This document shows, in pieces, positions 6,675 through 51,031 of a DNA stretch of 64,000 nt; position 1 is the first letter of the stretch; each line of letters opens with the position of its first letter. This stretch comes from an uncultured Oscillospiraceae bacterium (GTDB lineage Bacteria; Bacillota; Clostridia; Oscillospirales; Ruminococcaceae), in NCBI GenBank assembly GCA_949745795.1, contig CATKAZ010000096.1, positions 34,006 through 98,005 of the forward strand. Direction: 5' to 3'. A program made the position numbers and the translations under genes. The notes under the pieces are model-generated. The model searched no databases. It worked only from the letters and a program-made list of their open reading frames with translations, and was not told the origin of the DNA.

Positions 6675-6764
6675 ATGAAAATAGTTGTTATTAAAAGTCC
6701 GAAATTTTTGTCAGGTATACTTAGAGTTATTTTCAAAATTAAAAAGGAAGAACCAACAGAATAG
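6675..6764 (+). CDS. spoVM: Stage V sporulation protein SpoVM-like amphipathic peptide, 29 aa (absent from ORF track)
   Basis: Translates to MKIVVIKSPKFLSGILRVIFKIKKEEPTE, resembling B. subtilis SpoVM (MKFYTIKLPKFLGGIVRAMLGSFRKD). Preceded by TTGGAGGGA RBS; position after thiN matches Bacillus synteny. Confidence 0.88.
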   Translation: MKIVVIKSPKFLSGILRVIFKIKKEEPTE

Positions 6765-6776
6765 TAAAACATAAAA

Positions 6777-6807
6777 AAGGGACTTTTTCAATTGTGAAAA
6801 GTCCCTT
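6777..6807. terminator. Intrinsic terminator hairpin
   Basis: AAGGGACTTTTTC-aatt-GTGAAAAGTCCCTT between convergent genes. Confidence 0.75.
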
Positions 6808-6813
6808 GATTCT

Positions 6814-7026
6814 TTATTTATTTTGTTCCATTTCGTTTCTTAGATTTTTTAAATTTTGGTTGCAGTAATATAATATTTCGTGCATAAGATTTACTCCGTA
6901 AGAGAAGTTATCACCGTCAGCAGGATTTAAGTCAGTACGGTAGGCAAGTATAAATAGAATTTCTTCAACTCCTCTTGATATTCTTAGAGTATTGTCAAGC
7001 TTATTAATTACATCTAAATCGGTCAT
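6814..7026 (-). CDS. Small hypothetical protein, 70 aa
   Basis: ORF with GAAAGGAAA RBS upstream of ATG at 7026 (MTDLDVINKLDNTLRISRGVEEILF...). Confidence 0.6.
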   Translation of the reverse strand: MTDLDVINKLDNTLRISRGVEEILFILAYRTDLNPADGDNFSYGVNLMHEILYYCNQNLKNLRNEMEQNK

Positions 7027-7049
7027 ATTTAATTTCCTTTCTGTTTTTA

Positions 7050-7078
7050 TTGACAACCCACGAAAGGAATGCTATAAT
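7050..7078 (+). promoter_or_regulatory. Consensus sigma-A promoter of putative sRNA unit 1
   Basis: TTGACA (7050-7055), 17-nt spacer, TATAAT (7073-7078). Confidence 0.8.
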
Positions 7079-7084
7079 AGATTT

Positions 7085-7161
7085 AGCAGATTCCTTTCGA
7101 GGGTTTGTGTGTATAACGGTAACGCTTAACTTGCGATGTGGGGCGTTATCGTTATTTTTTT
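7085..7161 (+). ncRNA. Putative small RNA unit 1 (promoter to intrinsic terminator, no ORF)
   Basis: Starts after consensus promoter; ends at stem AACGGTAACGC/GCGTTATCGTT plus T7. Near-identical copy at 7433-7521. Confidence 0.6.
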
Positions 7162-7328
7162 ATATCAGACTTTAATTTTTCAATCCCTCTGCGAACGGCT
7201 TCGGCTTTTTCAACATTTTCCTGCTTGCAATAAGCTTTTAATGTTTCAAAGCTTTCATTGTCAAGCCTTACAGTTATTCTTTCGCTTTTAGGATTTTCAA
7301 TTTTAGGTCTGCCTGTTCGTGGACTCAT
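7152..7328 (-). CDS. Ribbon-helix-helix (CopG/Arc-like) small DNA-binding protein, 58 aa (absent from ORF track)
   Basis: Translates to MSPRTGRPKIENPKSERITVRLDNESFETLKAYCKQENVEKAEAVRRGIEKLKSDIKK; GAGGTGA RBS; consensus promoter upstream. Confidence 0.82.
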   Translation of the reverse strand: MSPRTGRPKIENPKSERITVRLDNESFETLKAYCKQENVEKAEAVRRGIEKLKSDIKK

Positions 7329-7362
7329 GTTTTCACCTCACTTTATGTCTGCCACTAAAAAC

Positions 7363-7391
7363 ATTATAAACTATGTCTGCCAAAAAGTCAA
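7363..7391 (-). promoter_or_regulatory. Promoter of RHH gene 1 with direct-repeat operator
   Basis: Minus strand TTGACT-N17-TATAAT; TGGCAGACATA repeated twice (complement at 7344-7354 and 7372-7382, 28-bp period). Confidence 0.75.
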
Positions 7392-7408
7392 TACTTTTTT
7401 AAAAAATA

Positions 7409-7438
7409 TTGACTTCTTCCCCAAAATAATGCTATAAT
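7409..7438 (+). promoter_or_regulatory. Promoter of putative sRNA unit 2
   Basis: TTGACT (7409-7414), 18-nt spacer, TATAAT (7433-7438). Confidence 0.7.
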
Positions 7439-7444
7439 AGATTT

Positions 7445-7521
7445 AGCAGATTCCTTTCGAGGGTTTGTTGTTGTAACGGTAACGCTTTGTTTTCGATTGT
7501 GGGGCGTTATCGTTATTTTTT
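7445..7521 (+). ncRNA. Putative small RNA unit 2
   Basis: Repeats unit 1 (GCTATAATAGATTTAGCAGATTCCTTTCGAGGGTTTGT...); ends in TAACGGTAACGC/GCGTTATCGTTA hairpin plus T tract. Confidence 0.6.
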
Positions 7522-7683
7522 TCCCTCAAGCAGTAAATAAATACCTTGCCTTATTGCTTCACCTTTGGTTATTCCGTGTTCTTCACAATACTTTTTTAAT
7601 TTGGCTTCTGTTTGTGCATCAAGACGAATGCTGTAGCGAATATTCTTTGGATTTTCTGCTTTAGGACGTCCTATTTGTGACAT
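7513..7683 (-). CDS. Ribbon-helix-helix small DNA-binding protein, 56 aa
   Basis: MSQIGRPKAENPKNIRYSIRLDAQTEAKLKKYCEEHGITKGEAIRQGIYLLLEGKK; internal ATG at 7683 preferred over 7821 (GAGGTG RBS, promoter TTGACT-N17-TATAAT upstream). Confidence 0.85.
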   Translation of the reverse strand: MSQIGRPKAENPKNIRYSIRLDAQTEAKLKKYCEEHGITKGEAIRQGIYLLLEGKK

Positions 7684-7744
7684 ATGACACCTCACTTTCT
7701 GCCACACTATTATTATACAGTATGCGTGACAAAAAGTCAATACT

Positions 7745-7921
7745 TTATTTTTTGTCCTGTGACATAAGTAAATGAATGCCTTGCCTAATGGCTTCTGCTT
7801 TTGTGATGTTATTTTTTTCACAGTACTCTAATAATTGCTTATGCATTTCGTCATTAAGCCTTACTTTGACGTCATTTACTTTTGGACTGTCAGTAGGTCT
7901 GCCCATTTTTTTGGAACGCAT
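7745..7921 (-). CDS. Ribbon-helix-helix small DNA-binding protein, 58 aa (absent from ORF track)
   Basis: MRSKKMGRPTDSPKVNDVKVRLNDEMHKQLLEYCEKNNITKAEAIRQGIHLLMSQDKK; AGTGAGGTGA RBS. Confidence 0.83.
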   Translation of the reverse strand: MRSKKMGRPTDSPKVNDVKVRLNDEMHKQLLEYCEKNNITKAEAIRQGIHLLMSQDKK

Positions 7922-8009: not shown

Positions 8010-8123
8010 TTGACATTTTATGGTATTAATGATATAATAAAACTACGGAAAATATTTTTTGATTTTGCCTTCCTTATAGGCGATAGTAACGCTCTGTTTA
8101 ACAGCAGGGCGTTACTGCTATTT
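8010..8123 (+). ncRNA. Putative small RNA unit 3 (promoter plus hairpin), diverged
   Basis: TTGACA (8010-8015)-N17-TATAAT (8033-8038); AGTAACGC...GCGTTACT hairpin about 70 nt downstream; no ORF. Confidence 0.45.
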
Positions 8124-8261
8124 AATTGAGTTAATATTGATTTTTATGTCTTGACATTTTTAACGGTAATGCAAATGCGTTGCCGTTTTTACTTTTATCT
8201 GCAATAATTTCTCATAATATAGAAAGCATTTTCATATAAATTTATTATATGGAGGTGTATT

Positions 8262-21439: not shown

Positions 21440-21468
21440 AATCCGTACAAAAAAAGTACGGATTTTTT
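21440..21468 (+). terminator. clpX terminator
   Basis: AATCCGTAC-aaaaaa-GTACGGATTTTTTT. Confidence 0.8.
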
Positions 21469-21479
21469 TAAAAAAAGCC

Positions 21480-21508
21480 TTGACAAAATCTATATAGTAT
21501 GATATACT
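21480..21508 (+). promoter_or_regulatory. Promoter of tRNA gene
   Basis: TTGACA-N17-TATACT, 25 bp upstream of the tRNA. Confidence 0.75.
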
Positions 21509-21533
21509 ATATAAGTACTCAAAACTTATATAT

Positions 21534-21610
<77 letters not shown>

Positions 21611-21915: not shown

Positions 21916-24255
21916 TTATTCAATCAATTTACGTTTCATTAAACATAAGTCAAAAACATTTATAACATTGTCATTATATAAGTCTCCTGCTTTCCAGTCG
22001 GTAAGCTTTGCATCAGGCATGGCAATCAGCCATTTCAGCATTGCCACAACGTCTGAAGTATTAAAGATGCCGTCTGCATTTACGTCGCCCTTTAAGGACT
22101 CGATTTTTTCATCTGCAAATGTCAGCAGATAGATAAACGGCGAATTCCAGTAAATTGTGATTTCGTTGGTTGAGTAGCTTTCCTGATTGTCGATATAGCG
22201 TTTTAGAATCGGAGCGTCGGAGCAATACGCCTTGACTGCACTGTCTTCCAGGAACTGACCTACACCACCGACTATCATGCCCGGCATAGGTTTATCTTGT
22301 GCAATAGAAGGTCTGTGATGAGGATGCTGAGGAGAAACTGTACCGCTGCCTGTGAGATAGCATACGCCAAGAGGATTGCAGCCGAGAATATAATTTTGAT
22401 CGCCCATAGCGGAGTTTTTGTACTTTACATCACCAGTCAGCTTGTAAGCGTTTCCCAGAATAATGCCAGCATTAGCAACGTTCATATTGCTGCCCCAGTA
22501 ATATGTTGGAATACCAACACCGTATGGACTGCTTTCCGAGCGTGATGCAAAACTGTCGGCTTGAGACAGGACGAATTTTTTCGCATTGATATAAAGCGGA
22601 TCTTCTGTATCGGCATTTGGCATTGTCAGAATAGCAATATTGCCGTAATCACCCATATGACCTGTATCCATGCCGGTTTGTACGGAGATTTTTTCAGCAG
22701 CGATCTGATAAATTTCGTCTTTTGTGGTTCTCCAAAGCTGAGCTGCTGCCCAGTAACGTTCTTCCTTGTCGGAGGTATCGTCATAAGCGCCGGTTACGAT
22801 GTCCGAGGGATTTTTATAAACCAGATTTGGATTATTTTCAAGTCATTTCCAGGCGTTTTTTGCCGCTTTCAGACAGTTTTCGGCAAATGCTTTGTCCTTA
22901 TCGAAATAAACCTCGTAAGCCAAAGCCATGGCACCGCAGAAGTCCGCAGTTGCAGTCGATGTGATAGGCGTCACTATCAATTCTGCGGTTTCTTCATCCG
23001 GCATTACATACCCCGGGAATGCCGCACATGTGACTTTGTGATGAACACCTCCGGATTTATCCTGCATTTTCATCATCCATTCAAGTTCATAACGTACTTC
23101 GTCAAGAACATCGGGTATACTGTTGCCGCTTTCGGGAATTCCGACATTGTCGGAAAACATTTCGGGCTTATTCAGATATGCATACATCAGGTCGGCAGCA
23201 GCCTTTGCACCGGGAACAACATATCTTCCGTAATCTCCCGCATCATGCCAGCCACCGCCGACGTCGATTTTTTCATTTGTTCCATAAACTGATGCAAGGG
23301 AATCATGGCAAGCCTTGTGACCAAATATATCATCATTTATTGATGTGCCGCATCTTTGTAAGTAAAACATTTTAAGTGTATCGTTAAGAACATTGTTATA
23401 AACATTGTCTGATATCTCAAATGTATATGAATCATCCAAATCACCGCAGGTAATGTAATATTTACCGGGCTTAGTAACGGCGGAGAAGTCACCCGTGCGG
23501 TTATTCTCGTCCGCAAGACTGTAATGCATCGTTGGAGAGAGGGTTCCTGTGTAAACGGGCTTTTTTGTTTCGGCATTTACAACAGTGAAATTATCAAAAT
23601 TGTCGGCGTTCTTAAATACGACAGTTTTCCTTGCGTCGGTAAGATATCCTACCTGATTCGTGATAATTGACGGCTCATATGCTTTACCTGAATTTTTATC
23701 GACCTTGCTGTCGTCGATTAACTCCAAAGAAACATTGTCAATGTAAATCGTATGCTCAGGCAGATTTTCCTCATAGTTACCACAATTGAATTGTAAACGA
23801 GCCATAATATCCGTATCGGCTTCCATAGTGAATTCATAGTCAATCGTCTGCGGTTCAGTGGTAAGTGATAAGGTTTTGGCTGTGTATGCCTGATAAGTAC
23901 CGCCGTTTTGTTGAATCATACCGTCAACAGTTCTGTTTGCCGTGGAAGAAATATCATATTTCAGACGATAAACACCGTTTTTATATAGAGGAATTATGTC
24001 ATAGTACACCTGAACTGCCCATGTCACATCACCGGTTGATGAAATTTTCAAGGCAAGTCTGCCGTCATCCGTTCCAAGACTGCATACGCCTCCTGTCTGA
24101 TAGTAGGTGGTCCAGCCGATTGTACCGTTGTCAAATGTTGAGTTACTGACAAGATTGGTACTTTCAGCGTAAATCGGTGTGTATGAGATTACGCTGCCCA
24201 ACATGATTGCAGAACATAGAACGGCCGTGCATTTTTTGAAAAAGTTTTGTTTCAT
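21916..24255 (-). pseudogene. GH9 endoglucanase (CBM4/9-like, Ig-like, GH9, dockerin) interrupted by one in-frame TGA
   Basis: ORFs 22843..24255 and 21916..22671 share one frame; a TGA at 22843-22845 splits ...NAWK*LENNPNLVYKNPSD.... Paralogous to the GH9 at 41692. C-terminal dockerin GDVNADGIFNTSDVV...NDNVINVFDLCLMKRKL. Confidence 0.88.
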
Positions 24256-24258
24256 AAG

Positions 24259-24885
24259 TTAAACCTCCTGTTTCAGATAATGTGAAATAAACGTATAAAC
24301 CGCATTGTGAACTTGAACCGGATAATAAGGAATTCCGGAATATTCCAACGCTTTTTTCTGACTGTTACTGTTACTTGTGTAGCTGTCGATACCGTAAAGA
24401 AAAATGAAAAAGCTATGCTGAAATTCCTTTTTGACTGTATTGTTTATTGACGGAAAGAATTTGTCCAGGCAAAGAAGTAGTATGTTAATAGCGTTATATG
24501 TAACCTGCTGTACCTCCGCAAGACGTTCGGTACGGCTGTTTTCTTCCAATTCGTAATGATTCCATGAGATAAGTTTCAGAAAATATCTGCGTTCATGCAA
24601 AGAAGCGGCAACTGCTTCGGCAAATTCGTGCAGGGTCATATTGTCGTGATTTGCGATTTTTTGCAGTACGACACACCATGACTGAAATTCTCTTGCAATC
24701 AAGGCAAGAAAAATTTCTTCTTTATTTTGAAAATAATTATAAATGGAAGTGCGCGTCATGCTGGTTTTTTCACCGATCTCACGCATGGAGATATTTCGGA
24801 AACTCTTGGTTTGATAAAGCTCCTCAAAGGCGTCGATAATTTCATTTTTTCGGGAATTAGTAAGCTCTTCTGAACCTCGTGACAT
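24259..24885 (-). CDS. TetR-family transcriptional regulator
   Basis: N-terminal HTH (ISMREIGEKTSMTRTSIYNYFQNKEEIF); 3 bp upstream of the GH9 gene in the same direction. Confidence 0.92.
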   Translation of the reverse strand: MSRGSEELTNSRKNEIIDAFEELYQTKSFRNISMREIGEKTSMTRTSIYNYFQNKEEIFLALIAREFQSWCVVLQKIANHDNMTLHEFAEAVAASLHERRYFLKLISWNHYELEENSRTERLAEVQQVTYNAINILLLCLDKFFPSINNTVKKEFQHSFFIFLYGIDSYTSNSNSQKKALEYSGIPYYPVQVHNAVYTFISHYLKQEV

Positions 24886-25980: not shown

Positions 25981-26706
25981 ATGGTTATGCAAAAAATTTT
26001 TACTAAAGAATTTAGACCCGGTGAAAAATGGTCAGGATTAATCGGAAAGAATAAGTATATTCACTTTAAAGCCCTTGGTGATAATGCAAATGTATCTGTA
26101 CTTCTCTATAATATGAGAGATACATCTGAAAGATTTAATATGCCTGATTCACTTAAAGCTCAGTATACAGCTCATCTTACAAAAGGTAATGTACTAATGA
26201 GTGATAACGGACGGGTTTTAGCAAGTATTGTAGAAGACAGTCTTGGCTGGCATGATGCAATATGCGGTCATACAACCAGAAGAATGACAGATGAAAAATA
26301 CGGAAAGACAACATATCAGGAACAGGGAAATGAATTTTTCAGGTGCGGTGAGGAAAATTTTAAAATTGAACTTGTACGTAACAATATGAGTAAAAGAGAC
26401 ATTGTACCATGTGTAAATCTTTTTTCAAAGGTTTATGTGGATGAAGACGGAAGTATGAATTATGTTCCGAACCATTGTAAAAAAGGTTCAACGGTAACTC
26501 TCAGAACAGAGATGGATATAATTTTCGTTGTTTCAAATACACCGAATCCGCTGGATCCTTCTGCTGAATATCCGTCAGTTCCTGTAACTATGGAGGTTTA
26601 TGATGCACCTAAGACAGATCTTATGGATGAATGTGTGAATTACAGAGATGAAAATTACAGAGCGTTTGAAAATACATGGGATTATTACAATCTGCTTGGT
26701 AAATAA
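25981..26706 (+). CDS. DUF1989 protein (urea carboxylase-associated / carboxyguanidine deiminase subunit-like)
   Basis: UCA-type sequence; first of two DUF1989 genes before a biotin carboxylase fusion. Confidence 0.82.
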   Translation: MVMQKIFTKEFRPGEKWSGLIGKNKYIHFKALGDNANVSVLLYNMRDTSERFNMPDSLKAQYTAHLTKGNVLMSDNGRVLASIVEDSLGWHDAICGHTTRRMTDEKYGKTTYQEQGNEFFRCGEENFKIELVRNNMSKRDIVPCVNLFSKVYVDEDGSMNYVPNHCKKGSTVTLRTEMDIIFVVSNTPNPLDPSAEYPSVPVTMEVYDAPKTDLMDECVNYRDENYRAFENTWDYYNLLGK

Positions 26707-26727
26707 TTAAGGGAGGATAAACTTATT

Positions 26728-27375
26728 ATGTTTGGATTTATTGAAAAAGACAGTGAACTTAAAATAGAAGACGCTGTATATGATGAAGTACTTGAAGCAG
26801 GACTGGGCTGGATACATAAATTGAAAAAAGGGCAGTCTTTCAGAATACTTGATCTTGAAGGAAACCAGGCAGTAGATACAACATTTTATGATATGGCTGA
26901 TCCCGAAGATCATTATGGCGCCGTTCAGACGGTTGTTGCTCAGAAAAATATTTACCTTACAACGGGCAGTATACTGCGGGCTGAATCAGGCAAACCGCTG
27001 CTTGAAATAACCGCTGATAAGACCGGAAGACATGATACACTTGGCGGAGCTTGTTCATCACAAAGTAATACAGTACGTTATGCAAGAGAAAAAAGGTACA
27101 TGCATAACTGCCGTGACAGTTTTATGCTACAGCTTGCTGATTGCAAATTAGATATAAGAAAAAGAGATCTTGCGCCTAATATAAATTTTTTTATGAATGT
27201 TCCGATTACTAAAGAGGGCGGATATAAATTTGACGACGGTGTATCTGCTCCGGGAAAATATGTTGAAATGAAGGCTTTGGAAGATGTAATGATTCTTATA
27301 AGTAATTGTCCGCAGTTGAATAATCCGTGTAATGCGTATAATCCTACACCGGTAAGACTTCTTATATGGGATTGA
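26728..27375 (+). CDS. DUF1989 protein (second subunit-like)
   Basis: [24 protein letters not shown]...[16 protein letters not shown]; paired with the preceding gene. Confidence 0.85.
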
Positions 27376-27394
27376 TTATTAGGAGTGAAATATA

Positions 27395-30300
27395 ATGTTT
27401 AAAAAAGTATTGATAGCAAACAGAGGAGCTATTGCCGTAAGAATAGAGCGAACTCTGAAAAAAATGGGTATAAAAAGTGTTGCGGTATATTCAAAAGCAG
27501 ATCGTGACAGCCTTCATGTTGAATATGCAGATGAAACGTTCTATCTGGGAGAAGGCACAGCAAAAGATACATATCTTGATGTTGATAAGATAATTGAAGC
27601 TGCATTGAAAACAGGTGCTGAGGCTGTTCACCCCGGTTATGGATTTTTAAGTGAAAATACTGTTTTTGCAGCCATGTGTGAAAAAAATAATATCAAGTTT
27701 ATAGGACCGGATTCCAATCAGATAAAACTTTTCGGTTTAAAACATTCTGCGAGAGAAATTGCCGAACGTGCAAATGTACCCCTTCTATCCGGTACAGGAC
27801 TTTTAAACTGTATTGATGAAGCTGTTGAGGCAGCAGAAAAAATAGGATATCCGGTAATGATAAAAAGTACGGCCGGCGGCGGAGGTATAGGAATAAGAAT
27901 ATGCGAGACTAAGGATGAACTTGTTTCATCTTATGATAATGTTTGTCATCTTGCCGAAAGTAATTTTAATGATGCCGGAGTATTTCTTGAAAAGTATATC
28001 AGAAAAGCAAGACACGTTGAAGTTCAGATATTCGGAAATGAGTATGGTGAGGTAGCTGTACTTGGTGAACGTGATTGTTCGGTTCAGCGGAGAAATCAGA
28101 AAGTTGTCGAAGAATCCCCGGCTCCTAATCTTTCGGAAAAAGTAAGACAGGAAATGTATAAAGCCGCAAAAAGTCTTGCAAAAACAAGTGGTTACAGAAA
28201 TGCAGGTACCGTGGAATTTTTATATGATGAATCTGTTGAAAAATTCTACTTTCTTGAAGTAAATACAAGGTTACAGGTTGAACATGGTATAACTGAAGAA
28301 GTATATGGTGTTGACCTTGTTGAATGGATGGTGAAGGAAGCCTCAGGAGAACTTAAAGGTATTGAAAATTTTAAAGCTGTTCCGAATGGAAATTCTATTG
28401 AGATAAGAGTTTATGCCGAAGACTGCATTAATAATTTCCGTCCCGGTACAGGAAAAATAGATGATGTTATTTTTAGTAATAAAGCACGAGTAGAAACATG
28501 GATAAGAAAGAATACAGAAATATCGCCTTTATATGACCCAATGCTTGCAAAAGTTATAGTTCATGCCGAATCAAGAGAATCGGCTGTAAGCAAAATGCTT
28601 GAAGTCATTGATGAATCAAAGATATATGGTGTGACAACTAATCTTATGTATCTGAAAAGTCTTATTTCGTCTGATGATTATAAGGCAGGTAAACTTTTTA
28701 CTAAAATGCTTGAAGGCTTTATGCCGGAAGAAAATTCACTTGAAGTTCTTGACGGCGGTTTACAGTCAACTGTTCAGGACGCAGAAGGAATGATCGGATA
28801 TTGGACAGTCGGTGTCCCTCCATGCGGTGCTATGGATTCATACAGCTTCAGAATAGGAAACCGACTTCTTGGAAATTCTCCCAATGCCGCAGGTATTGAG
28901 CTTACTATGAGAGGCGGTACTTACAGGTTCAGAACAGCTGTAAGCTTTTGTATCACCGGTGCTGATATGTCAGCAACACTCGACGGAGAATCTTTACCCA
29001 TGTATACAGTAGTTAATGCCGCTCCGATGCAGGAACTTAAATTTAAAACCTGTACAAAAGGTATGAGAACATATCTCCTTATTGCAGGCGGTCTTGATGT
29101 ACCGGAGATAATGGGAAGCCGTTCTACATTTTGTGACGGTAAGTTTGGCGGTCACAACGGACGAGCATTAAGAACAGGTGATGTATTGCATCTTAATGAA
29201 AATTGTTTGATTAGCAGTAAGGTTTCATTTAAAAAAGAGTATATTCCGAAAATAGATAATACATGGAATATCGGTGTTATTCCGGGACCGCAGCCAACAT
29301 ATGAATACTTAAAGCCTGAGTATTTGAAAACATTGACAGAGTCTGAATACACGGTTAACTTTAACAGTGCAAGAACAGGTATAAGACTTAACGGTCCTAT
29401 TCCTCAATGGGTAAGGGAAGACGGAGGCGAAGCAGGACTTCATCCTTCAAACATTCATGATAATGCATATGCTATCGGAACTCTTGATCTTACAGGTGAT
29501 CAGTCTATACTATTAGGACCTGACGGTCCTTCATTAGGCGGGTTTGTTTGTTCAGTAACAACTGCCAAGGGAGAACTTTGGAAACTAGGTCAGTTACATC
29601 CGGGTGATAAGGTTCGTTTTCAGCTTATTACTCTTGAGCAGGCCGAAAAAATAAGAAAGGCTCAGGAAAAGAATATATCACTCGATTATACAGAAGTTAA
29701 TCTTCCGGAAAAAACAGATATTAAAGCTTCGTATGCTGTACTTGCATCAGGAAATCACGATAATACGAATTATAAAATCAGATTACAGGGTGAAGAAAAT
29801 ATACTTATTGAATATGGGGAAATGGAACTTAATATTGAATTGCGTTTCAGAGTACATATTCTTATGAATGAACTTGAAAAAAGCGGATTACCTATTATAG
29901 ATATGACACCCGGTATTCGTTCACTTCAGATACATTTTGACGTGGAGCATATTTCAGCAAGAGAAATGTGCAGTAAGGTAATAGAGGTAAATGCAAATTT
30001 ATCTGAACTTGATGACATAACAGTGCCGTCAAGAATTATAAAATTACCGCTTTCATGGGACGATCCGCAGACACAGCTAGCGGCACAGCGATATCAGCAG
30101 ACAGTACGTCCAAATGCGCCATGGTGTCCCAGCAATCCGGAATTTATCAGAAGAATAAACGGTCTTGACAGCATAAAAGATGTTCAAAATATTGTTTTTG
30201 ACGCAGAATATCTTGTGCTTGGACTTGGTGATGTTTATCTTGGTGCTCCTGTTGCCACACCTGTTGATCCGCGTCACAGAATGGTAACAACAAAATATAA

Positions 30301-30982
30301 TCCTGCAAGACCATGGACGCCTGAGAATGCAGTTGGTATAGGCGGAGCGTATCTTTGTGTTTATGGTATGGAAGGTCCCGGAGGATATCAGTTTGTAGGA
30401 CGAACTATACAAATGTGGAATCCGCTTAGGGAAACCGAATATTTCAAAAAAGGAAAACCATGGCTTCTCAACTTTTTTGACAGATTAAAATTTTATCCCT
30501 GTTCGGCAGATGAAATATTACAGTTCAGAGATGATTTCATCAGAGGAAAGTTTAATATTGAAATTGAAGAAACAACATTCCATCTTGGCGCATATAAAGA
30601 ATATCTTGAGAGTATCAAGGAGAGTGCGGCAAAGTTCAAGGCGCATCAGGAAGCGTCTTTTGAAGCAGAAAGACAGCGTTGGATAGAACAGGGACTTGAT
30701 CATTTTGTTTCCGAAACAGATGATCAGCAGCAGAGTAATGATGATATACTTCCTGATGGCTGTGAAGCTGTTACCGCAGCTATTCCGGGAAGTGTCTGGA
30801 AGGTCATTGCAGAAGAAGGTCAGAGGATTAGTGAAGGCGATACAATAGCCGTACTTGAAAGTATGAAAATGGAATTTCCGGTTGAAAGTGAATATGATGG
30901 AATGGTTGAAAAGGTATTTATAAAAACAAGTCAGCAGATCAATGCAGGTCAGATGATTGCCGCTATAAAAACGGAGGAATGA
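27395..30982 (+). CDS. Biotin-dependent urea or guanidine carboxylase (BC-CT-BCCP fusion, 1195 aa)
   Basis: N-terminal biotin carboxylase, central KipA/KipI-like CT domain (GPDGPSLGGFVC, LGDVYLGAPVATPVDPRHR), C-terminal VLESMKMEFPV biotin motif. Confidence 0.92.
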   Translation: MFKKVLIANRGAIAVRIERTLKKMGIKSVAVYSKADRDSLHVEYADETFYLGEGTAKDTYLDVDKIIEAALKTGAEAVHPGYGFLSENTVFAAMCEKNNIKFIGPDSNQIKLFGLKHSAREIAERANVPLLSGTGLLNCIDEAVEAAEKIGYPVMIKSTAGGGGIGIRICETKDELVSSYDNVCHLAESNFNDAGVFLEKYIRKARHVEVQIFGNEYGEVAVLGERDCSVQRRNQKVVEESPAPNLSEKVRQEMYKAAKSLAKTSGYRNAGTVEFLYDESVEKFYFLEVNTRLQVEHGITEEVYGVDLVEWMVKEASGELKGIENFKAVPNGNSIEIRVYAEDCINNFRPGTGKIDDVIFSNKARVETWIRKNTEISPLYDPMLAKVIVHAESRESAVSKMLEVIDESKIYGVTTNLMYLKSLISSDDYKAGKLFTKMLEGFMPEENSLEVLDGGLQSTVQDAEGMIGYWTVGVPPCGAMDSYSFRIGNRLLGNSPNAAGIELTMRGGTYRFRTAVSFCITGADMSATLDGESLPMYTVVNAAPMQELKFKTCTKGMRTYLLIAGGLDVPEIMGSRSTFCDGKFGGHNGRALRTGDVLHLNENCLISSKVSFKKEYIPKIDNTWNIGVIPGPQPTYEYLKPEYLKTLTESEYTVNFNSARTGIRLNGPIPQWVREDGGEAGLHPSNIHDNAYAIGTLDLTGDQSILLGPDGPSLGGFVCSVTTAKGELWKLGQLHPGDKVRFQLITLEQAEKIRKAQEKNISLDYTEVNLPEKTDIKASYAVLASGNHDNTNYKIRLQGEENILIEYGEMELNIELRFRVHILMNELEKSGLPIIDMTPGIRSLQIHFDVEHISAREMCSKVIEVNANLSELDDITVPSRIIKLPLSWDDPQTQLAAQRYQQTVRPNAPWCPSNPEFIRRINGLDSIKDVQNIVFDAEYLVLGLGDVYLGAPVATPVDPRHRMVTTKYNPARPWTPENAVGIGGAYLCVYGMEGPGGYQFVGRTIQMWNPLRETEYFKKGKPWLLNFFDRLKFYPCSADEILQFRDDFIRGKFNIEIEETTFHLGAYKEYLESIKESAAKFKAHQEASFEAERQRWIEQGLDHFVSETDDQQQSNDDILPDGCEAVTAAIPGSVWKVIAEEGQRISEGDTIAVLESMKMEFPVESEYDGMVEKVFIKTSQQINAGQMIAAIKTEE

Positions 30983-30987
30983 GTATT

Positions 30988-32691
30988 ATGAAGTATTTTC
31001 CTGAAAAGTTATCTTTAAAGTGGATAAATCAGGCTTACAACAATAATCAGCTTACTCCATATGAACTTGCCGATGAAATAATCAGAAGAGCCGAAAATAA
31101 TAAGGATAAAAATATCTGGATTGTTGCTCCGAATAAGGAACTTATGAAGAAATATATATCAAGACTTCCGCCTAAGAGCCGTGATAAACCATTATGGGGC
31201 ATTCCATTTGCAATTAAGGATAATATTGATCTTGAAGATGTTCCTACAACAGCTGCCTGCCCTGATTATTCATACACACCGAAAAAAAGCGCCTTTGTAG
31301 TGCAGAAGCTTATAGATGCAGGTGCATTTCCGGTTGGAAAAACAAATCTTGATCAGTTTGCAACAGGACTTGTAGGAACAAGGAGTCCGTATGGCGAGGT
31401 GCATAATGCTTATGACAGCCGAATGATAAGCGGCGGATCAAGTTCGGGTTCGGCAGTTTCTGTTGCGTTAGGTATGTCTGCGTTTGCTCTTGGGACTGAT
31501 ACTGCCGGTTCCGGCAGAGTACCTGCTATGTTGAATACACTTATAGGTTTTAAACCGGCTTTGGGCTCATGGTCAACCTCCGGTGTAGTTCCCGCATGTG
31601 CAAGCCTTGACTGTGTTACTGTTTTTGCTAACAGTCTTGAAGACGCTGAAAAGGTTAATGAGTATGCCAGGGGTTATGATAAGGAATGTGTATGGTCAAA
31701 AGAATACACTGAAAAAGGAATGAAGCTGCCAGAGAAAATATATTTACCGTTGAAAGAACCGAAATTTTTCGGTGACAATTCCGAAGTTCATAAATCTAAA
31801 TGGTATTCTTCGGCAGAAAGAATAAAAAAGCTTGGAATCACTGTTGAATATATAGATTATCAGATATTTTATGATGCGGCGCTTATTCTTTATGAAGGTG
31901 CATACGTTGCGGAAAGATGGGCAGATCTTAAAGATTTTATTAATGCAAATGAAGATAAAATTTTTCCTGTAACCAAAAAGATTCTTCAGTCAGGCGGAAC
32001 AGAAGAAAAAACGGCTGCAAAACTTTTTGATGATCTTCATATGCTTCAGTACTACAGGCATAAGGCAAATGAAATATTGAAGAATGCTGTTATGATAATG
32101 CCGACAGCAGGCGGAACCTTTACAAGAGATCAGGTAAGGGAAGATCCGATTAAAACAAATAGTCTTATGGGTCTTTACACAAATCACTGTAACCTGCTTG
32201 ACCTTATGGCTGTAGCAGTACCGGAAAATACAAAGGATAAAAATCTGCCGTTTGGAATTACTGTGTTCGGACTTGCTGATAGTACTGATTTGGTATTAAA
32301 AACCGCAGAAGCATTTCTTAATACTGAAAATATTGAGTTTGCAGTATGCGGACTTCATAAAAAAGGCTTATCACTTGAATGGCAGTTGACAGAGCTTGGT
32401 GCAGAGTTTGTTGAAAGTACAGTAACTGCAAAGGCGTATAAATTATATAAGCTCAATACCGAACCTGTCAAACCCGGGCTTATCAGAGACGAAACGGGCA
32501 TTGGAGAAAATATAAGTGTTGATATTTTCAGAATTCCGGTATCTAAGCTTGGAAATTTTATTGATAATGTAAAGCCGCCTTTATCAATTGGTAATATTGA
32601 ATTAAATGACGGCAGAATAGTAAAGGGTTTTCTTTGTGAAGAATATGCCTTAAAAGACGCAGTGGATATAACCTATAAAAAGAGATTTTAA
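30988..32691 (+). CDS. atzF: Allophanate hydrolase
   Basis: Amidase signature (GGSSSGSAVSVALGMSAFALGTDTAGSGRVPA) plus allophanate hydrolase C-terminal domain, directly after the carboxylase. Confidence 0.9.
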   Translation: MKYFPEKLSLKWINQAYNNNQLTPYELADEIIRRAENNKDKNIWIVAPNKELMKKYISRLPPKSRDKPLWGIPFAIKDNIDLEDVPTTAACPDYSYTPKKSAFVVQKLIDAGAFPVGKTNLDQFATGLVGTRSPYGEVHNAYDSRMISGGSSSGSAVSVALGMSAFALGTDTAGSGRVPAMLNTLIGFKPALGSWSTSGVVPACASLDCVTVFANSLEDAEKVNEYARGYDKECVWSKEYTEKGMKLPEKIYLPLKEPKFFGDNSEVHKSKWYSSAERIKKLGITVEYIDYQIFYDAALILYEGAYVAERWADLKDFINANEDKIFPVTKKILQSGGTEEKTAAKLFDDLHMLQYYRHKANEILKNAVMIMPTAGGTFTRDQVREDPIKTNSLMGLYTNHCNLLDLMAVAVPENTKDKNLPFGITVFGLADSTDLVLKTAEAFLNTENIEFAVCGLHKKGLSLEWQLTELGAEFVESTVTAKAYKLYKLNTEPVKPGLIRDETGIGENISVDIFRIPVSKLGNFIDNVKPPLSIGNIELNDGRIVKGFLCEEYALKDAVDITYKKRF

Positions 32692-32765
32692 TATTTATTA
32701 TACAATGGCGTATAGAACAATGAGGTTTTATACGCCTTGTAATTTAAAAACGGAGGTTAGTGAAA

Positions 32766-34873: not shown

Positions 34874-34929
34874 TATATGTTTGTATACTCGATAAGAAAA
34901 TTCATATTATTTTGAGGAGGATCATAAAA

Positions 34930-37212
34930 ATGTATTTACGTCGTAAGCTTTCCGGATTTATTGCGGGAATATTGACTATGACATGTCTTGCACAGCCTAT
35001 AACGGTTATTGCGGAAAACTCTGCTTCAAGCTACAAAATGAATGTTTCGGTTAATTTGTCAGGTGAAAAGAAAAAAATCAGTCCTTATATTTATGGAATC
35101 AATCAGTACGGCAATGTAAACAATTACAAAAATGTTACCGTAAATGCAGTACGTCAGGGAGGCAATCGCTACACAGGTTATAACTGGGAAACAAACTGGT
35201 CAAATGCAGGTGAAGACTGGGTAAACAGTTCGGACACTAACATCGGAGATGTTTCTAACGGTGCAGGATATGCCGCAAGAAAGCTTTCAGCGGAATGTGA
35301 AGAATATAATGTACCTTATAAAATGACAACTTTACAGATGGCCGGATACGTTGCCGCTGATAAGAACGGTACGGTAACTGCAAATGAAGCTGCTCCGTCT
35401 GACAGATGGCTGGAAGTGTTTACACATAAAAATTCTGAGTATCTTCTTGAACCGGATCTTACAGATAACGCAGTTTATATGGACGAATATGTAAATTATC
35501 TGGTAAAAACATTAGGTGATTCAACAACATCAACAGGTATTCAGGGATATAGTCTTGATAACGAACCGTTTCTTTGGAATGATACTCATCCAATGCTTCA
35601 CCCGGAAGAATGTACGGCAAACGAACTTATTGAAAAATCAATAGATCTTGCAAAGACTGTAAAAGAAATTGATCCGAATGCCGAAGTTTTCGGACCGGCT
35701 CTTTGGGGAATGCTTCCTTGTATTCAGGCGGGAACAAGTGAAAACTTTACAGACGCTGAATGGAACAATATTAAGAATAATTATAATTGGTATTTGGATT
35801 ATTATCTTGAAAGTATGGCAAAGGCTGAAAGTGAAACGGGAAAGCGTCTCCTTGACGTTGTCGACGTTCATTACTATTCACAGGATTGCTCGACTGACGA
35901 CGGTAAGCTTCAGGCAGCAAGAAGCTTATATGATGAAAGCTATGTGGAAAACAGTTGGCTTCAGCCTTATTTTGGCGGATATTTTCCATTGCTTCCGAAT
36001 ATTCAGAAATCAATAGACAAATATTATCCGGGAACAAAAATTGCTGTTTCAGAATATAATCTTGCAGATATTGCAAATGAAAAGACAACGGGCAAGAATG
36101 TAATTGCCGCTATTGCCGAAACCGAAGCGCTTGGCGCATTTGCACAAAATGAAGTTTACCTTGCCACATACTGGGGAACGCTTCCGGAATGTCCATATGT
36201 AGAATCCGCTATAAATCTTTATACTAACTTTGACGGAGAAGGTTCGTCATTCGGCGATACGCTTGTTGAAGCAAAAACTGAAGATTTGTCTAAATCAGCG
36301 GCATTTGCGTCTATAGACGGAAACGATGATTCGGATGTTAAACTCGTTCTTTCAAATAAGGAAAAAACAAGTACTGAAAAGGCTTCTATTACTATTGACG
36401 GTTCATCTGCTGATTATAAAAGTGCTGTTGTTTACGCAGTAACACAGGACAGCAGCGAAATCAGAATTATTGATGTTCAGAATAATTTAAGCGGTAATAC
36501 TATTGAAGTTGAGCTGCCTCCGCTTTCTGTTGCACAGGTTGTAATTTCAGATGAATTGACTGACAAGAAAGAATATGAAGCGCCAAGCATTACTATAAAA
36601 GAAACGGAATATAATGTAAGTGATCTTGCAACAGCTGAGGACGGTTCATATATTATTCCGTTGGGTGATAAGGAAAATCTTAAAGAAATCATATTTGATG
36701 TAAACAGTTATTCAACAGAAGGTTCTGCATATTACAGCGGCGGCGGAGGACTTTGTTTCCCAAGCCTTACTCCGGTAAACGGCGGAGAGCCTTTTTGGGG
36801 TTTTAAAACTGTTAATTTCTCTAACGGTCAGTCAAAAATCGTTGTAGGCTTTGACGAGTATTTTACTGATACAAATCAAGAACAGGTAAAAGCTGTTGTT
36901 GACGGTAATGAAGCGCAATGGCAGCCTAACTGGTGGTTATTCTCCGAAAAACAGGGAGATAAAGGTACTGATGTAGTAGTAAATTATTCTAAAGTAACTC
37001 TTGTTTATGAATACGATAATGCGGAAAAGTTAATAGGTGATGCAAACGCAGACGGCAAGATAAATGTAAGCGATGTGGTTGCTTTATCTCAGTGGTTAAT
37101 AAATATTAAAACAGTAAAAATAGACGGAGAGCTTGCAGATGTAATTACCGATGATAAAATTAATATTTTTGACCTTATGGCTTTAAAGAGAATTGTAATC
37201 AATAATAAGTAG
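34930..37212 (+). CDS. GH44 endoglucanase/xyloglucanase with C-terminal CBM-like module and dockerin
   Basis: GGNRYTGYNWETNWSNAG, LQMAGYV, YSLDNEPFLWNDTHPMLHP (CelJ GH44-like); dockerin IGDANADGKINVSDVV...DDKINIFDLMALKR; signal peptide. Confidence 0.88.
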   Translation: MYLRRKLSGFIAGILTMTCLAQPITVIAENSASSYKMNVSVNLSGEKKKISPYIYGINQYGNVNNYKNVTVNAVRQGGNRYTGYNWETNWSNAGEDWVNSSDTNIGDVSNGAGYAARKLSAECEEYNVPYKMTTLQMAGYVAADKNGTVTANEAAPSDRWLEVFTHKNSEYLLEPDLTDNAVYMDEYVNYLVKTLGDSTTSTGIQGYSLDNEPFLWNDTHPMLHPEECTANELIEKSIDLAKTVKEIDPNAEVFGPALWGMLPCIQAGTSENFTDAEWNNIKNNYNWYLDYYLESMAKAESETGKRLLDVVDVHYYSQDCSTDDGKLQAARSLYDESYVENSWLQPYFGGYFPLLPNIQKSIDKYYPGTKIAVSEYNLADIANEKTTGKNVIAAIAETEALGAFAQNEVYLATYWGTLPECPYVESAINLYTNFDGEGSSFGDTLVEAKTEDLSKSAAFASIDGNDDSDVKLVLSNKEKTSTEKASITIDGSSADYKSAVVYAVTQDSSEIRIIDVQNNLSGNTIEVELPPLSVAQVVISDELTDKKEYEAPSITIKETEYNVSDLATAEDGSYIIPLGDKENLKEIIFDVNSYSTEGSAYYSGGGGLCFPSLTPVNGGEPFWGFKTVNFSNGQSKIVVGFDEYFTDTNQEQVKAVVDGNEAQWQPNWWLFSEKQGDKGTDVVVNYSKVTLVYEYDNAEKLIGDANADGKINVSDVVALSQWLINIKTVKIDGELADVITDDKINIFDLMALKRIVINNK

Positions 37213-41691: not shown

Positions 41692-44600
41692 ATGAAAAAG
41701 CGTATATTTAAACGCTGCGCAGCCGCTCTTGCCGTTTGTGCGGTTATGTCATCGGCTATGCCGATTATTCCGTTAAATACTTTTGCCGCTTCTAATATTA
41801 TCAGCAATTCAACCTTTGACTATAATACTACCGGTTGGGGTACTTACAAGGAAAGCGGAGGGGTTTGTTCGTTAGGTACGGAAAATGGGAAACTTGCACT
41901 TACAGTAAACAATGTCGGAAGAGTCAGTCATGCTGTTCAGGTATTTTATGATATAGTTCCGCTTTATCAAAACGGAGTGTATCGCTTGAAGTATGATATT
42001 TCATCTACAACGGACCGATATATTGAAGCAATGATCCAGCAAAACGGAGGAACATATCAATCTTACACATGGAAGGGTCTTAATCTTACTTCTTCTCCTC
42101 AAACTGTTGATTACGAATTTACCATGACGGCTGAAACTGACATTATGGCTAAGTTGGTTTTCAATTGCGGTATTCAGGAAAAGCATGAAGGACAGCTTCC
42201 CGAACATAAAATTTATCTTGACAATGTTTCTTTAGAGCTTGTAGATGACAGTAAGGTGGATTATTCGGCATTCAGACCATATGAACCTCCGATAACTACC
42301 AATCAAGTAGGATACAGAAGTGACAGCAAAAAAACTGCTGTTTTCAGAAATGCAGACAGTGAAAGCGAATTTTCTGTTGTAAATGCCGATACAAATAAAG
42401 TTGTTTATACCGGTAAATTATCAGATGGTATAAATAATGTTTATGCAGGAGAAATAAATAAAATAGGTGATTTTTCTTCTGTTACGGAAACAGGAAAGTA
42501 CTATATAAAATGCGGAAATCTTGACAATTCTTATACCTTTGAAATTTCGGATAACGTTTATTCAAATCTTCTTGATGACAGTATAAGAATGCTTTATCTT
42601 CAAAGGTGCGGAACGGTTATACAGGACAGTGATTTCGGACATTCAGCTTGTCATACGGGAATCGCAACAATTTACGGAACAAATGACAAAATTGACGTTT
42701 CAGGCGGCTGGCATGATGCCGGTGACTATGGAAGATATATAGTTCCGGCTGCAAAGTCTGTTGCAGATTTGCTGTATGCATATGAAGCAAATCCAGAACT
42801 TTACAGTGACAGCATTGGTATTCCGGAAAGCGGAAACGGAACTCCCGATATACTTGATGAAGTTCGTTATGAGCTTGAATGGATGAAAAAAATGCAAAGA
42901 TCGGACGGCGGAGTATATCATAAAGTTACTTGTGAAAACTTTCCCGGATATGTTTCTCCTGAAGCAGAAACCGCTCCGCTTATCGTTACTCCCGTTTCTA
43001 CAACGTCAACTGCCGATTTTTGTGCATCAATGGCTTTGGCTTATGAATTTTATAAGGATATAGACGAGGCTTTTGCTCAGGATTGCTTAGAGCGTGCAGA
43101 ACTTGCATGGTCTTTCCTTGAAGCAAATCCGAATTTGATTTTTACTAATCCTACTGATATTACTACAGGAGATTATGGCGACAATTCTGATTATGATGAA
43201 CGTTACTGGGCAGCTGCGCAGCTTTACCGTGCAACCGGTAACAGCAAGTATGAGAATGCTTTAAACGGCATGTCGGCTTATAAGGGACTTGATTGGTCAA
43301 CCGTTGGAGATTACGGAAATATTGCAATTCTAACAGATAAGAAAATCAGCAAAGATTCATCAATCTATACAAAGGCCAAAAATATTGTTATATCTCAGGC
43401 GGATAAGTTTACTACTGTTTCTAATAATTCTCCTTATGGTGCTGCGATTACAAAGTTCGACTGGGGCAGCAACATGACTGTAGCTAATGCCGGAATTATA
43501 CTCAGTACAGCATATAATATTACAGGCGATGAAAAATATCTTAATGCTGCAAATGCTCAGATTGATTATTTGCTCGGAACAAATCCGGTCGGCGAATGTT
43601 TCTTTACCGGTTATGGAACGGTTTCACCGGAGAATCCTCATCACAGACCGTCTATGGCTGTTGGCAAATCAATGAAGGGAATGTTAGTTGGCGGCGTTAA
43701 TCAAAATCTGGAGGACAGTGCAGCGAAAGCTTATTGTCAGGGTCTGCCTGCCGCTAAGTGTTATGTTGACCATTCCGAAAGCTATTCCACTAATGAAATA
43801 ACTATATATTGGAATTCCCCGCTTACATATCTTGTTGCTCTTACAGATAATGAGGGTAAAGAAGAAAGTGAATTTACACTTGGGGATATTAATGGTGACG
43901 GACGTATAAATTGCTTTGATATGATTTTAGCAAAGAGGGGACTTATTAACGGTAAATTTGCAGACAGTGCCGCAGCTAAGGCAGCAGATGTTAATCAGGA
44001 CGGTAAATATACTGTTGCAGATGCTGTTCTTATTCAAAAGTTTCTTTTACGTCAAATAACAACTTTTCCTGTTGCAGAACAGACCGATTTCATAGATTAT
44101 GGTACTCCTATGAACGACAATGCAACTGTTACCGCGGATTTCAGAAAAGGTGAAACTCCGTTATTTATCGCTTCGGATGGCTGGACAAATGGAAGCTGCT
44201 TTGATTGCGGATGGTATAAACAGAATACCTCTTTTAAAGACAATGTGCTGAATTTGACAATTGATAAGGACAATACAGGAAAGTATAACTATTCCGGCGG
44301 AGAATACAGAACAAATGATTTTTATCATTACGGTTATTATGAAACATCAATGCAAGCTATAAAAAATGACGGTGTGGTATCATCATTCTTTACATATACA
44401 GGTCCTTCGGATAATAATCCTTGGGATGAGGTAGATATTGAAATTCTTGGTAAGGATACTACAAAGGTTCAGTTTAACTACTATACTAATGGAGTCGGCA
44501 ATCATGAGTATATGTATGATCTTGGCTTCGATGCATCTGAAGGCTTTCATACTTATGGATTTGACTGGCAGGCTGATCATATAACATGGTATGTTGACGG

Positions 44601-44760
44601 AAAGGCAGTTTACACTGCATATAATAATATTCCGACAACTCCGGGAAAAATTATGATGAATGTTTGGCCCGGTACAGGAGTTGATGATTGGTTAAGCTCG
44701 TTTAATGGAAATACTCCGCTTACCGCTCGTTATCAGTGGGTAACATATAATAAGCAGTAG
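41692..44760 (+). CDS. Bifunctional glucanase: CBM4/9-like, Ig-like, GH9, internal dockerin, GH16 lichenase
   Basis: GH9 motifs ([34 protein letters not shown]); dockerin [20 protein letters not shown]...[22 protein letters not shown]16 [10 protein letters not shown] and [18 protein letters not shown]. Confidence 0.92.
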
Positions 44761-49289: not shown

Positions 49290-50951
49290 TTAAAGTAATC
49301 TTTTAAGCATGATCGAATCGAATACATTTAGCTTATTATCGTCATTGACATCGGCATTTTTTAGCGCCTGATCTTTAAGTACAGAGGTTTTTACAAGATG
49401 TTTATTGAGAAGTACCAGGTCAGCTATTTCTATAGTTCCGTTAAGATTTATATCGCCTTTAAGTTCAGGTTTAGGATCAGTTTCATCAGTCGGCAGAGGA
49501 TTAACAGAACCGTCTGAATCAAGATTGCTTCCTTCGGATTCTGCATAAGTTTTGTAATAATCTGAAACTGATATTCCTGTTCCGTTTATACCTAATGGCT
49601 TTTGATGGTCAAGACTAATATACTTGCCTGTTTTTGATGTTTGCCATAATGATGGTTCAAAAAGTCCGTATTTTTCATCGTCCCATGTAAGGAAGTCATA
49701 TGATAAAAGACCGCCGGTATCACCTGAGTTCGGATTAAGGCACCAGAATGTATGATTAATATGATTGTCAACCATGTAGTCACGCAGAAGCTCCATCCAC
49801 TTTTGGTTTTCGGCACCATCCATGTGACCGCCCCATTCTCCTATTAACAACGGAGCAATATCCTGATCATTGATATATGCCCATGTATCATACCAGTAAT
49901 CGTCAAGCAGTGTTTGTGTTGTAAAATCTTTTTGGAACCAAGTCTGCGGCCATACGGACGGACCGTAATCATGCGGTGAGTACACTATTTGACTATTTCT
50001 GCTGTCAGAACCCAGTTCAATAGGATAATCTTTAACACCTCTTAGGTTTCCGCCCCACCATCCGGCATAATAGGGAGGATTAGATTCTGAATCAGGCTGA
50101 CCCCAAGTAAAGCTGTTGTTTCTAACCTGCTGCTCGACACCTTCAATAAGAATTAAAGCATTAGGGTGAACGTCAAGTATGGCATTAGCGCATTTTGTTG
50201 CTGCATAAGCCCAGTTATTCTCATCCTTTGAACCGTCCCATTTTGCAGCCTGAACGCCTTCTTGTCCCTTGCCGTGAGGTTCGTTTTTTAAATCATAAGC
50301 TAAAATAGTGTCGTCATTTTTATACTTATCTGCTAACCAAACCAGTGTATCAATCCAAATATCAGTTGTGATTACTGTACCGTCTTTTGTTTCTTTTCCG
50401 TACCAAAGATTATAATTATGTCCTGAATTATCTGAATGAGGACTATGGATATCAATTAGAGCTTTGATTCCATATTTTTTACATTTTTGCATAATTATAT
50501 CAAATATTTCTTCACTGGTTTTAAGTGTTTTACCGTCTTCGAGGACAAAATCCCTGTTTATGTCCACATAAGGCGGTTCATAACCGGCCTGAACGCTCTG
50601 TACAGGATTAGGTGTTCCATTCATCCAAGAATAAATAAGTTCTGTAGAGATAGGGAAACGTATAATATTAATACCCTTATCAGCTACATTTGAAAGAAAT
50701 TTATCACAGTCGGCTGCGTAAAGACCGTGCGGAACGTTTTCCGAGCAGTTGAAACCAAACCAGTTTGCCCCCGTCAGCCAAACTTGATTGCCGTCTTTAT
50801 CATAAAGTCTGCTTCCTACAGCATGAAGCCAGTCGTCATTGTTATCGTCAACAGCTGCTGAAGTTGTAAATCCGCCGAAAGCAGAAGTTATACTTGTTGC
50901 TGCAACAGTCAAAAGAGTAGCAGCAGCAATAAGCTTCTTTTTAAAGTTCAT
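49290..50951 (-). CDS. Secreted GH5 endoglucanase with dockerin
   Basis: Signal peptide; NIIRFPISTELI, AYDLKNEPHG, LIGEWGG motifs; dockerin KGDINLNGTIEIADLVLLNKHLV...DVNDDNKLNVFDSIMLKRLL. Confidence 0.92.
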   Translation of the reverse strand: MNFKKKLIAAATLLTVAATSITSAFGGFTTSAAVDDNNDDWLHAVGSRLYDKDGNQVWLTGANWFGFNCSENVPHGLYAADCDKFLSNVADKGINIIRFPISTELIYSWMNGTPNPVQSVQAGYEPPYVDINRDFVLEDGKTLKTSEEIFDIIMQKCKKYGIKALIDIHSPHSDNSGHNYNLWYGKETKDGTVITTDIWIDTLVWLADKYKNDDTILAYDLKNEPHGKGQEGVQAAKWDGSKDENNWAYAATKCANAILDVHPNALILIEGVEQQVRNNSFTWGQPDSESNPPYYAGWWGGNLRGVKDYPIELGSDSRNSQIVYSPHDYGPSVWPQTWFQKDFTTQTLLDDYWYDTWAYINDQDIAPLLIGEWGGHMDGAENQKWMELLRDYMVDNHINHTFWCLNPNSGDTGGLLSYDFLTWDDEKYGLFEPSLWQTSKTGKYISLDHQKPLGINGTGISVSDYYKTYAESEGSNLDSDGSVNPLPTDETDPKPELKGDINLNGTIEIADLVLLNKHLVKTSVLKDQALKNADVNDDNKLNVFDSIMLKRLL

Positions 50952-51031
50952 ATTGTACCTCCTAATCAAAATTAAAACCGCATTAATATACAATTTAATT
51001 ATAAACTATAAATAAAAAAATGTCAAGAAGT

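Follow-up and report, generated by a model that had tools for sequence, protein, structure and literature searches.

In pT181 and pIP501, countertranscript-driven attenuation lets an antisense RNA decide between mutually exclusive leader hairpins, usually with a terminator upstream of rep. In P22, sar lies in the arc-ant region. In the P22 immI region, the 'ant moron' inserted in the late operon, the gene for a small RHH autorepressor precedes that for an antirepressor, and an antisense RNA of ~68 nt blocks antirepressor translation (PMC2629481, PMC12197685). In pMV158, the RHH repressor CopG is combined with a counter-transcript from the copG-repB intergenic region; this antisense RNA is complementary to a stretch just upstream of the translation signals and blocks translation (PMC4485353). 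The c4 antisense RNA of P1 and P7 controls an antirepressor near its ribosome-binding site (PMC12197685).

The window described here, by which we mean the whole stretch of 64,000 nucleotides analysed, comes from an uncultured Oscillospiraceae bacterium and carries an array of small RHH genes with interleaved, predicted antisense RNA units. This array is quite probably an inserted cluster of cassettes with two layers of negative control, a repressor and an antisense RNA. In the first layer, the RHH protein would repress its own promoter via two operator sites, so that transcription of RHH and cargo stays low. In the second layer, a strong intercistronic promoter directed toward the RHH gene would produce an antisense RNA of 60-80 nt ending near the RHH stop codon. 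In the ON state, the leader of the readthrough mRNA would fold into a hairpin of two arms, L and R, leaving the cargo Shine-Dalgarno sequence (SD) open. In the OFF state, the sRNA would cover L, and R, thus freed, would base-pair with the cargo SD; an R:SD hairpin with a U-run behind it may also terminate transcription. The architecture is, from the sequence, nearly certain, dual negative control of the cargo is likely, and the exact L:R:SD switch is probable.

Anatomy and site of the array

The minus-strand genes RHH1 (7152-7328, 58 aa), RHH2 (7513-7683, 56 aa) and RHH3 (7745-7921, 58 aa) are each preceded by a strong SD (AAAGTGAGGTG). RHH2 is enclosed by a longer mechanical ORF, within which its 56 aa begin at the ATG at 7683. 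When aligned, the three proteins have an invariant GRP arm, conserved P13 and R21, a VRL/IRL strand and a K(A/G)EAxRxGI helix. The first-pass annotation had described three paralogous RHH genes of 56-58 aa with these motifs and had proposed a profile search. All three are present; the curated Pfam models (RHH_1, RHH_3, BrnA, DUF6290) gave weak matches under gathering scores, and PHROG 876 ('transcriptional repressor') matched all three strongly (E = 2e-15, 4e-14 and 5e-17). Because of the PHROG matches, the assignment of the three sequences as RHH proteins is secure. Their only solved relative was 'Uncharacterized protein 56B' (2kel, E = 0.003). Pfam, NCBIfam, PHROGs and PADLOC found neither a toxin nor a toxin remnant near the RHH genes, in keeping with the earlier statement that they lack a toxin partner; toxin remnants, which would mark the RHH genes as orphan antitoxins of degraded toxin-antitoxin (TA) loci, were rejected on these searches. 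No recombinase adjoins the array in the window.

Promoters were scored as matches to a 12-position -35/-10 consensus, and each RHH gene has a minus-strand promoter scoring 11/12. That of RHH1 (TTGACT-17-TATAAT, 7391-7363) carries two TGGCAGACA operator sites 28 bp apart, which read TGTCTGCCA on the plus strand at 7346-7354 and 7374-7382. The RHH2 promoter (7740-7712) has a TGTCACGCA-type operator, and the RHH3 promoter (7980-7952) has two TGGAACTC operator sites.

The interleaved sRNA units, noted in the first pass, are real by their sequence anatomy. All three lie on the plus strand with extended -10 promoters, hairpin terminators and low fold z-scores (-3.9, -3.6 and -4.9 for sRNA1, sRNA2 and sRNA3). 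sRNA1 (7050-7161) has a 12/12 promoter at 7050-7078, a start at ~7085, and a terminator with T-run to 7161; the predicted RNA has a 5′ hairpin with CCUUUCGAGG and is antisense to the leader between RHH1 and a downstream gene, X. sRNA2 (7409-7522; promoter 7409-7438, 11/12) is nearly identical to sRNA1 in its 5′ part (87% identity over 75 nt) and is without an R arm or cargo of its own. sRNA3 (8010-8123; promoter 8010-8038, 12/12) is diverged and lies upstream of, and divergent from, RHH3; no cargo or RHH partner was found for it. No Rfam antisense or ctRNA family scored above its gathering threshold in the locus; the best ctRNA match, ctRNA_pND324, reached 26.9 bits against a cut-off of 45 and was on the opposite strand. 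An additional hairpin at 8158-8190 (plus strand; AACGGTAATGC-AAAT-GCGTTGCCGTT, then T's) looks like the sRNA1 terminator and is possibly the remnant of a fourth sRNA unit.

X (6814-7026, minus strand, 70 aa) sits between the sRNA1 promoter and spoVM, downstream of RHH1 on the same strand. Both sRNA1 and X are required parts of the cassette and fall outside the interval covered by the first-pass annotation. The X SD (GAAAGGAAA) is at 7033-7041. In the minus-strand leader, arm L (7090-7105) has its complement within the sRNA1 5′ end, and arm R (7055-7070) can pair either with L (15/16) or with the X SD (8 bp, TTCCTTTC:GAAAGGAA). A hairpin common to spoVM and X (6777-6807) is likely a bidirectional terminator, and a transcription unit running from RHH1 through the leader to X and ending at this hairpin is plausible. 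X has no family match in Pfam, PHROGs or PADLOC and no homologue in the 298 other family genomes (299 in all). Its AlphaFold model is a two-helix hairpin of moderate confidence (pLDDT 75), and its likeness to the cargo of three related loci (L067, L129 and L084; hhalign E = 1.3e-4, probability 54%) is suggestive only.

RHH1-sRNA1-X would thus be the complete cassette of the window, with RHH1 its predicted autorepressor; RHH2, RHH3 and sRNA3 seem to be further cassettes or ones lacking cargo. The earlier picture of repeated RHH/sRNA cassettes is right as to repetition, but only the first of the three looks complete, with X as its cargo; sRNA2 and sRNA3 have none. We infer autorepression, sRNA expression, ON/OFF switching and the function of X from this anatomy. 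Predicted pairing with the X leader amounts to -136 kcal/mol for sRNA1, -105 for sRNA2 and -39 for sRNA3. Because sRNA2 shares its 5′ end with sRNA1 and is predicted to pair with the leader, it may silence X in trans; it could also act on RHH2-RHH1 readthrough RNA.

The array is flanked by spoVM on one side and a spoIVFA/M50-like gene pair on the other. Two congeners have the spoIVFA-like gene after spoVM with no cassette in between. About 1.4 kb would therefore have been inserted in the window or lost in the relatives, and we read the array as an insertion because the site is empty in those relatives. The empty site, and arrays in other genomes, agree with the earlier description of the cassettes as chromosomal and multiplied. 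The SpoVM-like short ORF, MKIVVIKSPKFLSGILRVIFKIKKEEPTE (6675-6764, plus strand), comes directly after a thiN-like gene. Elsewhere in the window, an Rfam match to the Staphylococcus sRNA S774 (21462-21553, plus strand), just above threshold, overlaps a tRNA gene and is probably a tRNA artefact. By eye, 26000-32700 holds a gene cluster of urea carboxylase-like and allophanate hydrolase-like type, which includes two proteins resembling urea-carboxylase-associated ones. Also by eye, 22000-24300, 34900-37200, 41700-44760 and 49290-50993 encode several secreted proteins that resemble glycoside hydrolases and have dockerin-like ends, consistent with a cellulolytic Ruminococcus-type genome.

Related loci and their cargo

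We found 79 loci related to the RHH cassette, mostly in Oscillospiraceae and Lachnospiraceae MAGs. In most of them, a same-strand ORF with an SD starts ~110-130 nt past the RHH stop, and the stretch between that stop and the cargo start contains a promoter on the opposite strand. Beyond the RHH stop, 75% of 76 loci have an antisense promoter of at least 10/12, against 57% of 28 independent family-genome loci kept as a hold-out and 5.2% of 404 other ORF ends used as controls; at a score of at least 11/12 the fractions are 46%, 39% and 0.25%. The hold-out loci without such a promoter are partly RHH genes in front of another RHH gene. Pairing of sRNA and RHH elsewhere, whose absence had been set beforehand as a refuting result, is kept in roughly 60 or more loci. 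A predicted unit of RHH gene, antisense RNA and cargo gene thus recurs widely.

Among the first cargos of 62 loci, Rha occurs in 7, ORF6N in 4, DUF6809 in 2, and Bro-N and HTH_17 in 1 each; PHROGs adds HNH, and excisionase-like genes are also among the cargo of relatives. The remaining cargos are small unknown proteins. The first cargo is succeeded by Bro-N in 4/34 loci, by AntA in one and by KilAC in one. Overall, roughly one relative in five, and several phages as well, carry an antirepressor as cargo, and in the congener G002 a cassette (L133) stands before an 86-aa gene that, by eye, overlaps a Bro-N-like antirepressor gene. Phages of Streptococcus, Clostridioides and Fusobacterium have the same order of RHH, sRNA, small ORF and antirepressor; in several phage loci the antirepressor is the first or second cargo, and some Gram-positive phage cassettes lie within structural gene regions. 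The antisense promoter is of similar strength in phage loci L086, L088, L091 and L092, somewhat weaker in L087, and still weaker or different in L089 and L090. These likenesses suggest that the cassette family comes from phages or is shared with them, and that its cargo there is typically an antirepressor operon.

RHH genes are present in 35/299 family genomes, with up to 17 copies in one, and arrays with several RHH genes, sRNAs and paralogous cargo recur in other genomes. In the L127 and L131 arrays, the small cargo proteins are paralogous (MYTMDDLCANVLE..., MYTMDDLCASVLE..., MYTMEDLWFHALE..., MDTTENLWSNVLK...), which suggests cassette duplication with diverging cargo. At L132 (1467-2063) in G005, of the same genus, the RHH frame is open through the sRNA region into the cargo, a natural fusion. 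A plasmid origin was considered and rejected: in the two plasmid matches inspected (Geobacillus, Parageobacillus), the RHH domain forms the end of a longer protein, near ParA/ParM and with no sRNA.

Operator specificity, leader covariation and rival explanations

Paired half-sites flank the -10 in most RHH promoters of the related loci, and they track the RHH beta-strand. The strand ERITVRL goes with operator TGGCAGACA, NKISIRI with TGCCAGACA, NDxKVRx with GAGTTCC/GGAACTC, xRYSIRL with TGTCAC/GTGACA, xPIHVRL with GGGCTACA, and both YKLTVRV and YKITTRI with TGACxGTCA. Operator similarity is 0.43 for proteins with the same strand (61 pairs) vs 0.03 for those with differing strands (153 pairs), at 60-70% identity elsewhere, and the Mantel correlation between operator and strand is 0.29 against a null maximum of 0.115. 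In a sliding-window scan, covariation with the operator peaks on the beta-strand, with another peak on the EKAEA segment close to the second helix. Operator specificity thus appears to reside in the beta-strand. RHH1, RHH2 and RHH3 belong to three different strand classes and are therefore predicted to be orthogonal, each acting on its own operator.

On the mRNA strand, arm L of the leaders generally sits immediately upstream of the sRNA -10, and arm R covers the sRNA -35. For each of 57 dereplicated loci, the best pairing without interruption was scored and compared with pairing to partners from other loci. L:R pairing was 19.5 vs 13.4 when swapped (z = 15.2), R:SD pairing 18.3 vs 13.9 (z = 11.5), and the control pairing L:SD gave z = 0.1. 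Kinship among loci can inflate these values, and shuffling within -35 classes, which limits the inflation and does not remove it, left z = 10.9 for L:R, 6.8 for R:SD and 1.1 for L:SD. With the -35 hexamer removed, R against SD still gave z = 8.8. Examples of R:SD pairing include ATATCCTCC:GGAGGATAT (L010) and GCCTCC:GGAGGC (L033), as well as the window pairing given above. In a hold-out set of 15 loci, L:R and R:SD gave z = 6.0 and 3.8, but the L:SD control was raised too (z = 4.6), so this set does not isolate the switch mechanism. Blocking the sRNA footprint in silico lowered mean SD openness from 0.38 to 0.13 (Wilcoxon p = 1.8e-8), with a fall of more than 0.1 in 32/57 leaders and a rise in 2; several leaders are predicted to keep the SD closed in both states. 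For X in the window, SD openness fell from 0.65 to 0.00, and the MFE folds agree. Like the covariation and the operator code, the anatomy, conservation and empty site of the cassettes are computational observations.

These data bear on three other explanations. The same cassette might use its sRNA mainly for transcription attenuation of the pT181/pIP501 kind, the R:SD hairpin being an sRNA-induced intrinsic terminator. Cargo SD-to-start spacers are indeed T-rich (0.50 vs 0.29 in control genes, p = 2e-8), with TTTT runs in 43% vs 13% of controls, but more than half of them lack TTTT and many stems are AT-rich, and we consider this account doubtful. Attenuation and an SD lock can also coexist, and the hairpin could double as a terminator in many loci; in the window this is unlikely because the X spacer, AAATTAAAT, is without a U-run.

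RHH proteins are common as antitoxins, so one may ask whether X is a harmful small protein held in check by RHH and antisense RNA, in a type I-like arrangement, with the other RHH proteins as orphan antitoxins. The tight predicted double repression of a tiny ORFan product would suit such a system, as would the weak BrnA/RelB profile matches below cut-off. X, however, matches no toxin family in Pfam, PHROGs or PADLOC, its moderate-confidence model, a two-helix hairpin (pLDDT 75), looks unlike the short membrane peptides common among type I toxins, and the cargo slot of relatives holds antirepressors, HNH and excisionase-like genes; together these make the TA-like reading rather improbable. More improbable still is a chance cluster of decayed prophage remains, in which the sRNA-like promoters and palindromes arose by coincidence or serve some unknown regulator as DNA operators. 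In its favour, cassettes 2 and 3 lack parts, and a large palindrome spanning a -10 could act as an operator. Against it, antisense promoter conservation is far above controls and R covaries with the SD, which a DNA operator does not need. Moreover, RHH half-sites show no enrichment at the sRNA promoter (8% vs 5%), a result on which action of the RHH at that promoter was likewise rejected. Two-layer control by repressor and antisense RNA remains our preferred explanation.

Comparison with P22 immI and plasmid copy control

The first-pass annotation had likened the array to CopG plus counter-transcript RNA. The likeness of architecture holds, conserved in ~60 or more loci; RHH plus a convergent sRNA alone does not, as the leader to which the sRNA is antisense belongs to a cargo gene co-directional with the RHH gene. 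P22 arc-sar-ant appears no less close a match than plasmid copy control, because the array has a cargo, X, and the cargo of relatives is often a phage antirepressor. Like P22 immI, the window cassette would begin with an RHH gene (PHROG 876 match, paired operators covarying with the beta-strand) and hold an intercistronic antisense RNA gene with its own putative promoter, and Gram-positive phages keep the same gene order, some in structural regions. In contrast to P22, X is not a recognised antirepressor, the locus is not in a phage genome but between spoVM and the spoIVFA/M50-like pair, and the family has a covarying L:R:SD switch, many operator specificities and tandem arrays. Kinship between the two extends, as far as shown, to the RHH fold.

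With pMV158 copG-rnaII-repB, the window shares a CopG-type RHH and a putative intergenic counter-transcript. It differs in having no Rep gene, in the chromosomal or phage-borne location of its cassettes, in an RNA predicted to be longer than the 48 nt of pMV158 and to have a 5′ hairpin, and in an arm R that would sequester the SD by covarying pairing. As in pT181/pIP501, an antisense RNA would choose between leader hairpins, but the second hairpin here includes the SD. P1/P7 c4 is alike in antisense control and differs in arrangement, with no RHH autorepressor described, while type II toxin-antitoxin systems differ in that Pfam, NCBIfam, PHROGs and PADLOC found no adjacent toxin gene here. By strict tests the window locus belongs to neither P22 immI nor pMV158, and it would work like both if our reading is right.

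We found no description of RHH/CopG, antisense RNA and antirepressor together in Firmicutes in the open-access literature subset. The cassette is best described, from its sequence, as a diversified and multiplied variant of the P22 immI/pMV158 type, real, conserved and under-described. It is about as likely as not that, more broadly, Clostridia and Gram-positive phages share a widespread and so far unnamed class of mobile control cassettes, with orthogonal RHH proteins of readable beta-strand/operator code, an antisense RNA flipping a covarying L:R:Shine-Dalgarno switch, and interchangeable cargo, spread as stand-alone, integrase-less chromosomal arrays. The beta-strand/operator table lends itself to work on an RHH recognition code, and cargo can be located by position alone, which would allow new antirepressors and further proteins controlling phage or host to be catalogued. 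Diverse cargo and covarying switches also make the logic testable by comparison, including repressor and RNA orthogonality among side-by-side cassettes. P22 immI and pMV158 are separate textbook cases; in gut Clostridia the same two-layer logic would occur many times. In contrast to P22 and the plasmids, there would be many locks, each with its own key, guarding many different genes.
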